This document shows positions 16,452 to 21,019 of a DNA stretch of 21,019 nucleotides, one piece after another. Each line of letters begins with the position of its first letter. Within the stretch, counting starts at the first letter, position 1. The DNA is from a virus: IMG/VR virus record IMGVR_UViG_3300021368_000141, positions 1 through 21,019 of that record, one strand, 5' to 3'. The notes beneath the pieces were generated by a model. The model was not told the origin of the DNA and ran no database searches. It worked only from the letters and a program-made list of their open reading frames with translations. The position numbers and the translations under genes are program-made.

Positions 16452-16918
16452 TGGCTTTTAAATTATCAAGTAGGTCTTTGGGTAAGCTAGAGGGTGTTCA
16501 CCCTGATATGGTTGCTACAGTGCAAAAGGCCATAGAGCGCACAAAAATTGACTTCGGCGTGACGTATGGCGTTAGAAGTGTCGAAGAACAGCAACGGCTT
16601 TTCGATATGGGTAGAAGCCAAACAATGAAATCTAAACACTTAATTCAAGATAGCGGGTTTTCACACGCTGTTGATTTGGTGGCTTACGATGGGTCGGAAG
16701 TTGTTTGGGAAATAAATGTATATGACGATATAGCTGATGCAATGGCTAGTGCGGCCAAGGAAGTAGGCTGTCGGCTTAGATGGGGCGCGGCATGGCATAT
16801 AGATGACATAGGCGATTACGAAGGCACTATGGAAGATGCTATGAACGAGTATGTAGACCTTAGAAGGTCGCAGGGGCGCAGACCGTTTATAGATGGTCCG
16901 CATTTCGAATTAAGGTAG
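16451..16918 (+). CDS. Endolysin: L-alanyl-D-glutamate peptidase, zinc M15 (VanY/T5-type)
   Basis: 155 aa, the usual length for this family. It is predicted to cut the peptidoglycan stem peptide. The order of motifs is SRSLGKLEGVHPDMVATVQKAI (~7-28), VTYGVRSVEEQQRLF (~37-51), then KSKHLIQ ... SHAVDLVAY with likely zinc ligands H63 and D75, and DGPHFELR at the C-terminus with D148 (catalytic base) and H151 (third zinc ligand). The D-x-x-H spacing equals that of T5 endolysin. The H63-D75 spacing is five residues longer than the usual SxHxxGxAxD motif. There is no signal peptide, so the holin should deliver it. A GGAG-like site and TAATG overlap couple it to the holin. It is the last late gene before the terminator. 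Confidence 0.85.
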   Translation: MAFKLSSRSLGKLEGVHPDMVATVQKAIERTKIDFGVTYGVRSVEEQQRLFDMGRSQTMKSKHLIQDSGFSHAVDLVAYDGSEVVWEINVYDDIADAMASAAKEVGCRLRWGAAWHIDDIGDYEGTMEDAMNEYVDLRRSQGRRPFIDGPHFELR

Positions 16919-16941
16919 GGGGCATTTAGCCCCCCTTTTTT
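16918..16941 (+). terminator. Rho-independent terminator of the late operon
   Basis: GGGGGC (16918-16923), loop ATTTA, GCCCCC (16929-16934), then six Ts (16936-16941). It begins at the last base of the endolysin stop codon and lies at the convergence with the minus-strand genes. The reverse orientation has no T-tract. Confidence 0.85.
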
Positions 16942-17287
16942 AGTAGCTTCTGCCGTTTGGGTAAATCATTTCTTTGTATGTATTAGGGTTTATCGTAATG
17001 GCGTGTTCTTGGTAAAATTCTTTACTGCGCGGGTCTAAATCGTTTAGCTCATCGTCCCATTTTTCGTAAGTCCTAATAGTCTTAACATACTCTTTATGTC
17101 CCAAATTGTTGGTGGTAACTATCGCCGCCACAAAAGCCAAAGCGTCTTGCTCACGCTCTAAACCTTGAACAACGTAATCGTCGCCACCTTTATACTTCCA
17201 ACGGTGTAGCCCTTCAGCAAATGCTCCAGAGCCTACTTCTGCGCCATCATTTTCTAAAATTTGTGTGCTAACAACATATACATTCAT
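16940..17287 (-). CDS. Unknown 115-aa protein (early-region type)
   Basis: Not recognised. It begins MNVYVVSTQILENDGAEVGSG and has mixed alpha/beta character, with a central region of Lys/Asp/Tyr (LHRWKYKGGDDYVVQG), a helix (EREQDALAFVAAIV) and a final PNTYKEMIYPNGRSY. No signal peptide or membrane segment. It is a single-gene unit: conserved promoter-leader element A lies upstream with an AGAGGA ribosome binding site, and a terminator separates it from the gene upstream. Its stop codon touches the T-tract of the convergent late terminator. Shared promoter architecture with the 101-aa and 92-aa genes suggests they are switched on together. Confidence 0.65.
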   Translation of the reverse strand: MNVYVVSTQILENDGAEVGSGAFAEGLHRWKYKGGDDYVVQGLEREQDALAFVAAIVTTNNLGHKEYVKTIRTYEKWDDELNDLDPRSKEFYQEHAITINPNTYKEMIYPNGRSY

Positions 17288-17364
17288 TTTTAAAATCCTC
17301 TTTTTTGCTTATACGTTAATTATAAATTAATAAATTGTAAATGTAAAGTATTTTTTTTGTAAAA
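17288..17364 (-). promoter_or_regulatory. Promoter-leader element A (upstream of the 115-aa gene)
   Basis: Reading on the minus strand: an A8 tract (17358-17351), TTTACATTTACA (17347-17336, the first half serving as -35), a 17-bp spacer, a perfect TATAAT -10 (17324-17319), then the 26-nt leader TATAAGCAAAAAAGAGGA plus an A/T spacer to the ATG. The same arrangement occurs before the 101-aa and 92-aa genes at identical spacing. Confidence 0.8.
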
Positions 17365-17381
17365 AGTAAAATAAATTAAAA

Positions 17382-17400
17382 AGGGGGCTGTTAACCCCCT
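17382..17400 (-). terminator. Rho-independent terminator after the 101-aa gene
   Basis: On the minus strand AGGGGG (17400-17395), loop TTAACAG, CCCCCT (17387-17382), then a T-run (17382-17378). It separates the 101-aa unit from the 115-aa unit, making both monocistronic. Confidence 0.8.
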
Positions 17401-17406
17401 CTAGCT

Positions 17407-17712
17407 TTATATTGCCATTTCTATTGACATTACCACTTCGCACTCTGCCGCTCTTACACATTCTCTTATAGAGTCGAAGGGTCCACATTCTTTTTCTACT
17501 TTTGTATTGTTATCGTGGGCATAAATTGTAGTAAGGTATCCTTCGCCCCATTCTTCTATAGTTACCCACTGATGGGCATTTCCGCCTTCTGATACTGGCT
17601 TTGCCTTCCAAAATGTTTTGATGTGGTGTCCGTCAATATACTCGTCAACTTGTGTAAAGCGCATTAGGCCATAATCAAATTTTGCGGGTTGTTCTTTAAA
17701 ATAGTTACTCAT
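17407..17712 (-). CDS. Unknown 101-aa protein (early-region type)
   Basis: Not recognised. It begins MSNYFKEQPAKFDYGLMRF and is soluble, aromatic and acidic. A beta-rich centre (HHIKTFWKAKPV, HQWVTIEEWGEGYLTTIYAH) is followed by a Cys-containing helix (CGPFDSIRECVRAAECEVV) with three cysteines at ~77, 85 and 91, too irregular to call a zinc site. Conserved promoter-leader element B precedes it with AGAGGA, and a terminator follows. Its own promoter and terminator imply a unit expressed independently of its neighbours. Confidence 0.65.
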   Translation of the reverse strand: MSNYFKEQPAKFDYGLMRFTQVDEYIDGHHIKTFWKAKPVSEGGNAHQWVTIEEWGEGYLTTIYAHDNNTKVEKECGPFDSIRECVRAAECEVVMSIEMAI

Positions 17713-17785
17713 TTTTAAAATCCTCTTTATTGCTTATATGTAAACATTACACTATAAATTTGTAAATGTACAGTACTTTTTTTAT
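17713..17785 (-). promoter_or_regulatory. Promoter-leader element B (upstream of the 101-aa gene)
   Basis: On the minus strand: an A7 tract (17783-17777), TGTACATTTACA (17772-17761), a 17-bp spacer from the first half to TAATGT (17749-17744, a poor -10), then TATAAGCAATAAAGAGGA and an A/T spacer to the ATG. It aligns base for base in spacing with elements A and C. Confidence 0.78.
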
Positions 17786-17802
17786 AATTTTTTAATTTAT
17801 TT

Positions 17803-18009
17803 TTACCAAGGCCGAATTTTTGGTTTAATTATTTTGGATGCTACGTCACTAACATCGCAATAGCCTTCTTGTGCATTTATTTGGTCGTACAGTGTATTAT
17901 TATTTAAAAGTACGCTCCAACAATCATCTTCACTAGAAAACCATATGCTAACGTACATCATATTATCAAGAAGTGTATAACCAAGTGTCAAAAGTGTATA
18001 ATATTCCAT
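17803..18009 (-). CDS. Unknown 68-aa protein
   Basis: Not recognised. MEYYTLLTLGYTLLDNMMYVSIWFSSEDDCW ... has an N-terminal moderately hydrophobic half and an acidic/polar second half, with no clear membrane helix. A CAGGGA ribosome binding site lies at good distance from the ATG. It is separated from the preceding 91-aa gene by 83 bp that hold no feature beyond a TATAAA at ~18035, so it may be the last gene of the small-gene operon or have a weak promoter of its own. No terminator is visible after it. Confidence 0.5.
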   Translation of the reverse strand: MEYYTLLTLGYTLLDNMMYVSIWFSSEDDCWSVLLNNNTLYDQINAQEGYCDVSDVASKIIKPKIRPW

Positions 18010-18092
18010 TGTGTTCCCTGTTTGTTTTCTTTATAAGGAATTTGGGGAGTGACGATGATGTCTTAGGCTCTAAATTCAATGTACTCCATATG

Positions 18093-18368
18093 TTAGTTTC
18101 TTGTGCCTAGCTCCCCACCAATATCCCAAGGAACTTTTGGTAAACTTATTCGATGGTTTTTAATTTTCTTTGTATCGGTTTCGATAGATGTTTTCCCACC
18201 GTACTGTTTAGCAAATTCTACACCAAACCTAAATGCATGGGTTCGAAGTGCGTGACTATCTATTCCCATTGCCCTCGAAGCCTCGACTATTGTTAAATGG
18301 CTAAACATCTCCAATAATTCTTTTACTTCGATAGATTGCTTTTTTCTTAGTTCCTCCCAAGGTTTCAT
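18093..18368 (-). CDS. Small helix-turn-helix-like protein
   Basis: 91 aa, with a strong AGGAG ribosome binding site. Residues ~13-50 (EVKELLEMFSHLTIVEASRAMGIDSHALRTHAFRFGVEF) have the pattern of a helix-turn-helix: a helix with E-A-S-x-x-M-G-I, a turn, and a recognition-like helix. The basic tail (~60-90) could contact DNA or RNA. It may be a regulator of the phage's own minus-strand genes, for example through the repeated promoter box, but that is inference. The ATG overlaps the stop of the 59-aa gene (ATGA). Confidence 0.6.
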   Translation of the reverse strand: MKPWEELRKKQSIEVKELLEMFSHLTIVEASRAMGIDSHALRTHAFRFGVEFAKQYGGKTSIETDTKKIKNHRISLPKVPWDIGGELGTRN

Positions 18369-18544
18369 ATTTTAACTCCTTCCTCCCTTAGTTTCTTAAT
18401 TAATACCGCCATAGCTTCTTTTGCTTGCCTATAGTCTTGTTTAACTGATGGCGGTGCGTCAGGTAGTAAGGCTAGGGGTTCTAGCCTATCTATTTCCCTT
18501 TTTATACTGTCCCGAGTGTCTCTATCTTCTGGTTTTATTTCCAT
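18365..18544 (-). CDS. 59-aa charged helical protein, overlapping both neighbours
   Basis: An AGAGG ribosome binding site sits 7 bases before the ATG at 18544. The product is acidic/basic alternating and helical: MEIKPEDRDTRDSIKREIDR, then LEPLALLPDAPPSVKQDYRQ and KEAMAVLIKKLREEGVKI. It overlaps the 82-aa gene by 23 bp and ends in ATGA shared with the helix-turn-helix gene. The two-helix pattern with a Pro-rich turn resembles small phage inhibitors or adaptor peptides, but no homologue is recognised. The overlaps and ribosome binding site make it very likely real. Confidence 0.65.
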   Translation of the reverse strand: MEIKPEDRDTRDSIKREIDRLEPLALLPDAPPSVKQDYRQAKEAMAVLIKKLREEGVKI

Positions 18545-18770
18545 TATCTGCCTCTCTTAATTTGTAACGCTTTTCATAAGCAAACCATTTATTGCGCGTT
18601 GAGTTGGTAAATCTGTCCATTTTATCTCTAAAAAGTTCTGGGTATTCATAAAAGTTTTTTGTTTCACCGTCTGTACGTTCAACTGCTTCTTCTACCCAAG
18701 CGGCTATATGTTGCAGAACAAAATTTTCTAAGTCTATAGCGTTCATAGGTGGTTTAGTTAGTTTTTCCAT
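18522..18770 (-). CDS. Unknown 82-aa soluble protein
   Basis: Not recognised. MEKLTKPPMNAIDLENFVLQHI ... is helical with many aromatic residues (NFYEYPELF, NKWFAYEKRYKLREADNG). No membrane segment or cofactor motif. An AAGGA ribosome binding site lies within the end of the 61-aa gene, which it overlaps by 13 bp. It is part of an unbroken chain of overlapping genes that starts at promoter C. Confidence 0.6.
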   Translation of the reverse strand: MEKLTKPPMNAIDLENFVLQHIAAWVEEAVERTDGETKNFYEYPELFRDKMDRFTNSTRNKWFAYEKRYKLREADNGNKTRR

Positions 18771-18943
18771 TGTTCATATCCTTTTTGCATAGCCGCAAGG
18801 GCGTTATTAATTACTCTGTTTTCTTTAGCAATCAAAGTGTCTATGTAGTCACCCGCCATTATATCAATGCAATGGTTTTCTAACGCTTGGCTAATAGTCA
18901 TATATTGGCTTTCAGTCAGTTCTACTTTTATCTTTTTACTCAT
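18758..18943 (-). CDS. Unknown 61-aa soluble protein
   Basis: Not recognised. MSKKIKVELTESQYMTISQAL ... IMAGDYIDTLIAKENRVINNALAAM, consistent with a small beta-alpha-alpha fold; the start (IKVELTESQYMTISQALE) looks like a strand followed by a helix. Its ATG overlaps the stop of the 31-aa gene (ATGA), with GGTGA upstream, so it is probably made by translational coupling. Its 3' end overlaps the 82-aa gene. Confidence 0.6.
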   Translation of the reverse strand: MSKKIKVELTESQYMTISQALENHCIDIMAGDYIDTLIAKENRVINNALAAMQKGYEQWKN

Positions 18944-19035
18944 TGCATCACCATAAAGCTGTCAATGTTGAGGGCTAGGATGGTCATAAAAATAACCATC
19001 CCTACTAATATAATTTTATCTTGCCAATCTAGCAT
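18940..19035 (-). CDS. 31-aa single-span membrane microprotein
   Basis: MLDWQDKIILVGMVIFMTIL, then ALNIDSFMVMQ. After a charged five-to-six-residue start, ~17 hydrophobic residues (~8-24) form one membrane helix. The ATG overlaps the stop of the 92-aa gene (TAATG) and the stop overlaps the next start (ATGA), so both ends are coupled to neighbours, which is strong support that it is translated. It could be a small inner-membrane regulator or a superinfection-exclusion or lysis modulator; no family is recognised. Confidence 0.6.
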   Translation of the reverse strand: MLDWQDKIILVGMVIFMTILALNIDSFMVMQ

Positions 19036-19313
19036 TAGAAGCTCTCCTTCCATAAATCATAAGCCATGTCATCGCATTGCACAGTTTCTAAAGATAAAGC
19101 CTCGTCTATAGCCATAAAGTATTCGTTTTCCACAAATGCTTTAACGTGCTTTGGAAGCTCTTTTTGCTGTTTAGTAACGTAGTTGCTCCAAAACATCTCT
19201 ATGTTGTCAGGGTGGCCATCTCTGTCCACGTCAGCATAAATTTCAATTTTAAACTCGTCACCGAAGCCACCTTTGCTTCTGATGTCTACGGTTAATTCAG
19301 TTGATATATTCAT
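19035..19313 (-). CDS. Unknown 92-aa protein with EF-hand-like loop
   Basis: Not recognised overall. The N-terminal half is beta-rich (ISTELTVDIRSKGG, FKIEIYADVD) and contains DVDRDGHPDNIE at residues 28-39, with Asp/Glu at EF-loop positions 1, 3, 5, 9 and 12 and G at 6, so calcium binding is possible. The second half is helical and acidic (AFVENEYFMAIDEALSLE ... MAYDLWKESF). It is the first gene of the small-gene chain, directly under promoter-leader element C with AGAGGA. The EF-like reading is by motif only. Confidence 0.65.
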   Translation of the reverse strand: MNISTELTVDIRSKGGFGDEFKIEIYADVDRDGHPDNIEMFWSNYVTKQQKELPKHVKAFVENEYFMAIDEALSLETVQCDDMAYDLWKESF

Positions 19314-19388
19314 TTTATAAATCCTCTTTATTGCTTATATGTAAGGTATAATATACAAAAATGTAAATGTAAATAGTTTTTTTTGTAA
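19314..19388 (-). promoter_or_regulatory. Promoter-leader element C (drives the small-gene chain)
   Basis: On the minus strand: an A8 tract (19384-19377), TTTACATTTACA (19373-19362), a 17-bp spacer from the first half to TATACC (19350-19345), then TATAAGCAATAAAGAGGA and an A/T spacer to the ATG. The A-tract begins only four bases after the stop of the 313-aa gene; no terminator lies between. Confidence 0.8.
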
Positions 19389-20362: not shown

Positions 20363-20390
20363 GGGGGGTTTCCCCCCCCTTTTTCTTTTT
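20363..20390 (+). terminator. GC hairpin with T-tract facing the plus strand
   Basis: GGGGGG (20363-20368), loop TTT, CCCCCC (within 20372-20379), then TTTTTCTTTTT. The T-tract follows the hairpin only on the plus strand, where no gene precedes it. On the minus strand, between the DUF932-like gene and the 313-aa gene, it would act as a hairpin without Ts. Confidence 0.55.
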
Positions 20391-21019
20391 ATAAAGTCTC
20401 CCATATTTTTGTATTTAGTAACTGGCCAACTGCTCTTTCTCTTTCGCGGGTTACATTGTGCGGCCTTTTAGTGTCTGTTGTATGGGTTGCCCAATGCGTC
20501 ATGCAGTTGTAAACCGCCCATTTGTTTTGGCCTAAGTGTTTAAACTCTTGGTCTAGTTGCCCCATAAGGTTTTCTAGTTGTTTTTTGTTATGGGTTTCTT
20601 CTGTAGTTTTAGAGTTAATTTTAACTAAACGTTTTTTAAACAGGTTTTCTACTTGCTCCTTCTCTACTTTGGTTTTCATCCAAGCTTGCCATTGTTCTTT
20701 TTGATTCCAAAATGTTTCCAAGCCTAGTTTAATTTTTTGCTCTATGCCTTCTACTGAAATGCTGTTGGTGTGTCGTTGCCATATTGCGGTAACGCTGTCA
20801 GGTGTAACGCAACCATTTTTGCACCATAGTCTAAAAGCATCGGCCACTGTTTGATATGCCCAATGTCCGTCATAAGAGTTAAAACCTTTTACCCTAAACA
20901 TTACATGGTCACCAACTTCTGGCTCAGTTACAAGGTTGTTAAACTTAATATCTATTTCAAGCTTCTTACCTTGCTCATGGCAATAAACATTAAAGTCATA
21001 ATCATTTGATATGTTAACA
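20389..21019 (-). CDS. DUF932-like phage protein, 5' end beyond the window
   Basis: The frame is open to the window edge, with at least 39 residues before the internal ATG at 20901 (VNISNDYDFNVYC ... VTEPEVGDHVMFRVKGFNSYDGHWA). The GD-x-V ... N-S-Y-D-G, then FRLWCKNGC, then H-T-N and, near the C-terminus, WAVYNCMTHWATH, follow the order of motifs in DUF932-family phage and plasmid proteins (N-S-x-D-G-S; R-x-V-C-x-N-G; Y-x-x-x-N-x-x-T-x-x-x-T-H). The family's function is not established. A charged coiled coil (EKEQVENLFKKRLVK ...) lies between. The visible part is the C-terminal ~209 residues, compared with typically 250-350 for the family. Confidence 0.6.
   Translation of the reverse strand, partial: VNISNDYDFNVYCHEQGKKLEIDIKFNNLVTEPEVGDHVMFRVKGFNSYDGHWAYQTVADAFRLWCKNGCVTPDSVTAIWQRHTNSISVEGIEQKIKLGLETFWNQKEQWQAWMKTKVEKEQVENLFKKRLVKINSKTTEETHNKKQLENLMGQLDQEFKHLGQNKWAVYNCMTHWATHTTDTKRPHNVTRERERAVGQLLNTKIWETL

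Follow-up and report, generated by a model that had tools for sequence, protein, structure and literature searches.

The stretch of DNA analysed here, referred to below as the window, spans positions 1 to 21,019 of IMG/VR record IMGVR_UViG_3300021368_000141 (21,019 nucleotides) and is a fragment of an uncultured podovirus. Its minus strand carries three small, unrelated genes, designated A, B and C, each directly preceded by a copy of the same 75-bp promoter-like module that ends in a conserved leader. The three copies, with their TTAC boxes (numbered from the upstream end), promoter hexamers and leaders, and the genes behind them are as follows.

17288..17362, minus strand: module copy A with leader, 5' of gene A; box 1 TTAC (17359-17362) followed by A8, -35 TTTACA (17342-17347), box 2 TTAC (17337-17340), -10 TATAAT (17319-17324), box 3 TAAC (17315-17318), leader TATAAGCAAAAAAGAGGA (17296-17313)
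17713..17787, minus strand: module copy B with leader, 5' of gene B; box 1 TTAT, -35 TGTACA (17767-17772), box 2 TTAC (17762-17765), -10 TAATGT, box 3 TTAC, leader (17721-17738)
19314..19388, minus strand: module copy C with leader, 5' of gene C; box 1 TTAC, -35 TTTACA (19368-19373), box 2 TTAC (19363-19366), -10 TATACC, box 3 TTAC, leader (19322-19339)
17336-17347, 17761-17772 and 19362-19373, minus strand: the 12-bp boxes of the three copies
16940..17287, minus strand: gene A, 115 amino acids (aa), no Pfam match
17407..17712, minus strand: gene B, 101 aa, no known family
19035..19313, minus strand: gene C, 92 aa, no known family

Aligned on the 12-bp box, the module and leader are 76-81% identical among the three copies, against 28-42% over the 60 bases upstream and 30-40% over the first 60 coding bases, and the distance from the box to the ATG is 60 bases in all three, confirming an original prediction of three minus-strand copies set at identical spacing before unrelated genes. 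The search pattern proposed with that prediction, which placed 21 bases between TTTACATTTACA and TATAAGCAA, would miss every copy, the actual gap being 22. Within the window the leader TATAAGCAATAAAGAGGA, with three mismatches or fewer, has 3 matches where 0.02 are expected, while the 12-bp box alone, with two mismatches, is found 7 times for 6.4 expected, which is chance level. A chance origin of the module was rejected on the combination of box, spacing and leader, which far exceeds chance as the box alone does not.

Relatives of the window were collected through the portal protein (80 related contigs kept, 58-79% identity; individual contigs are numbered below with the prefix L). The nearest named phage by this protein is Octadecabacter Antarctic DB virus 2, at 47%, in which a pattern scan did not find the module; neither the 313-aa neighbour protein nor DNA comparison among named phages yielded relatives. 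Pattern and matrix scans found the module in about two dozen related contigs, its carriers being uncultured marine phages. It always lies immediately 5' of a start codon, frequently in divergent pairs, and the box-to-leader gap is 22 in all copies from the pattern search. Nearly all real copies scored about 20-68 bits, and reversed-sequence controls gave at most 11 bits in one scan and no match in another; the control for the pattern scan returned 0 matches. The conservation of the box-leader pattern that had been proposed as a check on the prediction is thus borne out. Searched against 84,980 bacterial and archaeal species, one genome each, the strict module pattern had a single match, L149 (PAJM01000045.1, 29,798 bases, as is IMG/VR contig 2778261329_000001), which is filed under a euryarchaeal (Euryarchaeota) metagenome-assembled genome and carries modules; it is a phage contig wrongly assigned to an archaeal bin. 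Because the strict pattern matched only this misbinned contig, the module is a phage signal rather than a host signal. Of the earlier suggestion of a binding site for a phage or host factor, the phage half therefore stands and the host half is argued against, and the proposal of a regulon signal specific to the phage, with a binding site for a protein in it, gains support from conservation, at invariant spacing, before different genes in the relatives.

The anatomy of the module was read from 30 non-redundant copies differing pairwise by more than 6 of 58 bases, whose consensus is TTACaAaa..a....Tt.ac.tTTACaaa.ttat....TAt..tTtACaTAtAag.AA. One layer of it has the hexamers and spacing of a sigma-70 promoter (TTKACA, a 17-bp spacer and TAnnnT, with an upstream A-tract), and we infer that the module is a promoter of this type; its activity is predicted. 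The prediction held the -10 to be good in one copy only, and a simple sigma-70 consensus scan indeed passes copy A only; yet all three -10 elements of the window start with TA, copies A and B retain the last T, and over the 30 copies the T and A are invariant (100%) and the last T is kept in 83%. The T and A are the bases of the -10 that sigma-70 needs most. A T7-type promoter, expected as an unbroken conserved stretch of about 20 bp at the start site, is disfavoured by the -35/-10 layout with its variable spacer; the T7-type polymerase family PF00940 had no match in 17 records, in a search whose positive control was silent too.

The second layer, absent from the earlier description, consists of TTAC three times in 22-bp steps: the first heads the A-tract, and the second and third immediately follow the -35 and the -10, respectively, at about -50, -28 and -6. 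In the window the A-tract is headed at a fixed position by TTAC (TTAT in copy B), which puts all three boxes in exact 22-bp register. Over the 30 copies, boxes 2 and 3 keep their A and C in 100% and box 1 is at 87-100%, while most -35 positions are at 50-80%; the free divergence of the spacer between the boxes shows that the boxes themselves are maintained. Counting direct pairs of TTTAC at all spacings over twelve loci gave 40 at 22 bp against a mean of 3.1 per spacing, counts that are inflated by the overlap of these loci in descent. A search over all 6-mers and all spacings ranked TTTACA at 22 bp first in the module clade, whereas the six other relative groups gave no signal at that spacing. 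A strict palindromic operator at the start site, TTAC-N6-GYAA, fits most copies, but the copies before DUF932 genes (GACGTAGCAA) and those of L040, L047, L061 and L125 alter its right half, and it was not adopted.

These two layers bear directly on the simplest account of the module, namely an unregulated strong host promoter, made up of an UP-element A-tract, -35, -10 and discriminator, with a good ribosome site and spread by duplication, in which the TTAC boxes would be no more than promoter fine structure. The -35, the 17-bp spacer, the TAnnnT and the A-tract all fit sigma-70, and strong early host promoters are used by many phages. Against this, the TTAC within the spacer (box 2) is invariant and better kept than the -35 although sigma-70 does not require it, and the 22-bp triple recurs in a different orientation at the regulatory gene described next, which together make this account unlikely.

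Relatives encode a 59-67 aa protein of the Cro/XRE type, whose gene adjoins that of an O-like replication initiator. The protein matches HTH_3 (PF01381) at 31.4 bits against a curated cut-off of 23, as well as phrog_18104, a transcriptional regulator; no convincing relative was found in the PDB. The intergenic control region of its gene is laid out differently from the module and contains TTTAC, GTAAA and GTAAA at 0, 22 and 44 in 7 of the 8 module-clade sequences, a triple that none of 5000 dinucleotide shuffles reproduced for each of three sequences tested. L125 and L133, whose XRE proteins are 63-64% identical with the same recognition helix, SRPVLYQI, retain TTTAC-22-GTAAA, and L125 also retains a diverged module. 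Overall, the boxes are present with the SRPVLYQI helix, and phages with SKHT, SRFT, SRWT or SRHT show neither these boxes nor a module. These observations point to the XRE protein as the candidate reader of the boxes.

The original prediction had named a different binder, encoded within the window:

18093..18368, minus strand: 91-aa helix-turn-helix (HTH)-like protein, conserved in relatives

This protein, or one encoded beside the divergent control regions, might regulate the modules in place of the XRE protein, possibly as an activator recruiting RNA polymerase through the -50 and -28 boxes, and both the conservation of the 91-aa protein and the position of boxes upstream of and within the promoter could suit such a role. 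The 91-aa gene, however, has neither a module nor a box array of its own, it being the XRE gene of the relatives that has boxes at 22-bp spacing instead, and the fold model of the protein is of low confidence (predicted local distance difference test, pLDDT, 60), leaving it the weaker candidate. The first genes of the divergent regions differ between phages and therefore cannot be a common regulator. Control by another phage protein thus strikes us as improbable, slightly more so than an unregulated promoter.

We therefore favour, with a probability of roughly 0.6, the view that the module serves the phages of this clade as their standard early promoter, read by host sigma-70 RNA polymerase and controlled, probably repressed, by the phage Cro/XRE protein. 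In the proposed mechanism, the host polymerase would read TTKACA-N17-TAnnnT, aided by the A-tract at about -48, and transcription would start at the A of ATAAGCAA, giving an unstructured leader of about 25 nucleotides with a GAGGA/AGGAG ribosome site. The three TTAC boxes, superimposed on the promoter and exactly two turns (22 bp) apart, would lie on one face of the helix and be read by a phage-encoded DNA-binding protein, for which the XRE protein beside the replication initiator is the best candidate. This protein would most likely repress all modules and its own gene, so that early expression would be followed by shut-off. Unrelated genes could be swapped behind the module through homologous recombination without leaving the regulon. 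Sequence comparison shows the conserved module, its spacing, its phage specificity, the exchange of genes and the sharing of boxes with the XRE gene; from these we infer the XRE protein as binder, repression rather than activation, promoter activity and the transcript starts.

Several points weigh against this interpretation. Given that the module copies share descent, conservation alone overstates constraint, and the link between helix and boxes rests on few independent changes that are confounded with overall divergence. The XRE gene lies outside the window, which is a fragment, and L047 has modules and no XRE gene on its short contig. The boxes at the XRE gene are oriented forward-reverse-reverse rather than forward-forward-forward; a direct-repeat array is moreover unusual for a dimeric Cro-type protein, and the only plausible dyad, TTAC-N6-GYAA at box 3, is broken in the DUF932 copies.

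Phages with other XRE proteins offered a few further observations. In those of the SKHT type (L126 425-460, L118 11842-11859, L121 7645-7662, L127 1685-1702) the XRE promoter contains GTCTTATATA twice in direct orientation, 17 bp apart, and this may be an operator particular to the subgroup. The XRE control region of L162 has TGTATCTT twice, 22 bp apart, possibly a changed box at an unchanged period; across contigs with a different XRE recognition helix no 22-bp signal was found, and the idea remains a lead.

The original prediction also considered a leader acting on the mRNA. The AGCAA...AGGA leader is almost confined to genes that have TTTAC boxes, among them the one oriented divergently to XRE. 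The three window leaders fold no better than shuffled sequences (z +0.8 to +1.7) and have no match in Rfam, and a structured leader or RNA switch was rejected on these two results. The best interpretation of the leader is that it combines start-site sequence with a ribosome site. Longer leaders (89-97 bases from box to ATG) follow the left-hand divergent module of L109 (8850-8970), L112 (2990-3101), L113 (590-684) and L043 (16899-17000), and contain an inverted repeat, TACAAGTAAA-TTTT-TACTTGTA, and an additional TTGACA; this could represent a further operator, a hairpin or another promoter. Another module-like promoter, with a shortened leader (TTTACAAGCAATAAAGGA), lies at about 2950-3020 of L132, where the matrix did not score it.

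The genes behind the modules are diverse: 49 distinct pairs of module and gene fall into about 22 unrelated families of first genes. Homologues of gene C occur in about ten relatives (40-95% identical), most with a module in front; its predicted structure is of low confidence (pLDDT 67.5) and no function was inferred from it. In a distant relative (L092, 5' of 17742, minus strand), the promoter of a gene C homologue is laid out similarly and lacks TTTAC boxes. In divergent pairs the two modules point away from each other across about 46 bp, with a conserved core such as GTAAAGTTACGTTACGTTATTTAC between them; they face RusA and its neighbours on one side and, on the other, DUF932, the 313-aa relative, gene C and the HTH operon. 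In relatives, the DUF932 gene has a fourth module with a shortened leader directly 5' of it. Three other features of the window bear on the organisation of these genes.

16917..16936, scored on the plus strand: GC-rich terminator-like stem, 3' of gene A, where the early and structural genes converge
17380..17402, minus strand: intrinsic-terminator-like stem (AGAGGGGGTTAACAGCCCCCTTT plus a T tail), 3' of gene B and just 5' of module A
20389..21019, minus strand: DUF932 gene, cut by the window end; a 170-aa open reading frame is its C-terminal part, the frame being open to the end

Genes A and B of the window each consist of a module, a single gene and a terminator-like stem. Gene B is missing in L111, L031 and L076, where the B-type module stands directly before gene A; it is also absent in L115, and gene A lies directly behind a B-type module in L066 too. 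The breakpoint of this loss falls inside the module, in a segment common to both alignments with the window. L104 and L105 carry an additional gene of 52 aa behind module C, which is missing from both the window and L111. Between L114 and L144 the alignment covers a 141-aa gene (the MTYTY cassette) plus its module and goes no further, although the cassette occupies different places in the gene order of the two. As read from these alignments, the modules are junctions of gene gain and loss. Exchange would be explained by module homology combined with self-contained regulation: because each copy would unite promoter, operator and ribosome site in a single block that runs up to the start codon, the gene behind it could be exchanged for an unrelated one.

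The loss of gene B at a module breakpoint, the variable presence of the 52-aa gene after module C and the occurrence of the MTYTY cassette at two loci would also suit a recombination or cassette-boundary element that exists mainly for gene exchange, its regulatory content being incidental. Such an element is very improbable, since conservation tracks the promoter elements and boxes instead of being uniform, the spacer diverges freely, and neither a tyrosine nor a serine recombinase was found in the 17 records (two of more than 36 kb, all possibly fragments). Gene exchange is better seen as a consequence of the module than as its purpose. As to lifestyle, a lytic phage whose Cro-like protein shuts down the early genes is favoured, and lysogeny is an unproven alternative.

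The nearest functional parallel to an early promoter under a phage repressor is SPBRE of the Bacillus phage SPbeta. This repeated promoter element was recognised in silico, and its repressor, MrpR, was identified only decades later (PMC10516654). As in such a repressor regulon, the same site recurs at several promoters of one phage and is missing from host genomes; both elements are short, repeated in intergenic promoter regions of one phage and placed before mostly unknown genes. SPBRE, however, is a 15-bp motif bound by a repressor with a tyrosine-recombinase fold in a temperate phage (PMC10516654), whereas the module extends from the UP tract to the start codon, has three boxes spaced by 22 bp and a Cro/XRE candidate, and occurs in phages in which no integrase was found.

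Other systems resemble the module in part. The start-associated sequence (SAS) of Cluster K mycobacteriophages and its extended upstream part (ESAS) likewise form a conserved sequence directly 5' of the start codons of many unrelated genes (PMC3203893), SAS being a 13-bp sequence, GGGATAGGAGCCC, and ESAS 17-bp inverted repeats (PMC3203893). The SAS sequence has no match in the window and ESAS-type inverted repeats were not found in the modules, which unlike SAS/ESAS contain a plain sigma-70 promoter. The 17-bp dyad repeats of Cluster O mycobacteriophages are also common to one phage cluster, with deletions between repeats proposed from genome comparison, but are palindromic and mostly off promoters (PMC4351075), in contrast to the direct, asymmetric boxes that are always at promoters here. 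Morons of lambdoid phages are individual accessory genes, each equipped with a promoter and a terminator of its own and variably present in close relatives (PMC7067206), a description that genes A and B fit with predicted promoters and terminators. Morons usually have unrelated promoters that are expressed in lysogeny, whereas all modules share one early, probably repressor-controlled design that also drives core early genes (RusA, DUF932). Like the C1 operators of phage P1 and the stoperators of mycobacteriophage L5, for which one phage repressor recognises many asymmetric sites genome-wide (PMC9283540), the boxes are asymmetric; those sites are single, unlike the three boxes of 4-5 bp that are built into the promoter here at a fixed 22-bp period. 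Among the papers searched, the exact box string occurred in three only, all on other subjects, judged by title. Phage early regulons are known; what is unusual here is the operator layout. It is possible, if not quite probable, that the module represents a new operator design, with three direct TTTAC boxes on one helix face, exactly two turns (22 bp) apart, running through a sigma-70 promoter and read by a tiny Cro-like protein, the whole block serving as a socket for accessory-gene exchange under one regulator.

Recognisable from sequence alone, the module would mark the early regulon in a clade of uncultured marine phages and tie together, as co-regulated early genes, about twenty families of small, unknown proteins. 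Early genes are the usual location of anti-defence and host-takeover proteins. If the link between boxes and XRE protein is true, it would provide an operator code with an unusual 22-bp phasing, and a picture of phages that add or swap genes without losing control of timing, in which one phage protein may control a swappable gene set. Lastly, between the replication initiator and terminase genes of L104 (11330-12583) lies a gene for a 417-aa protein that combines a ParB N-terminal domain with an N6/N4 DNA methylase.

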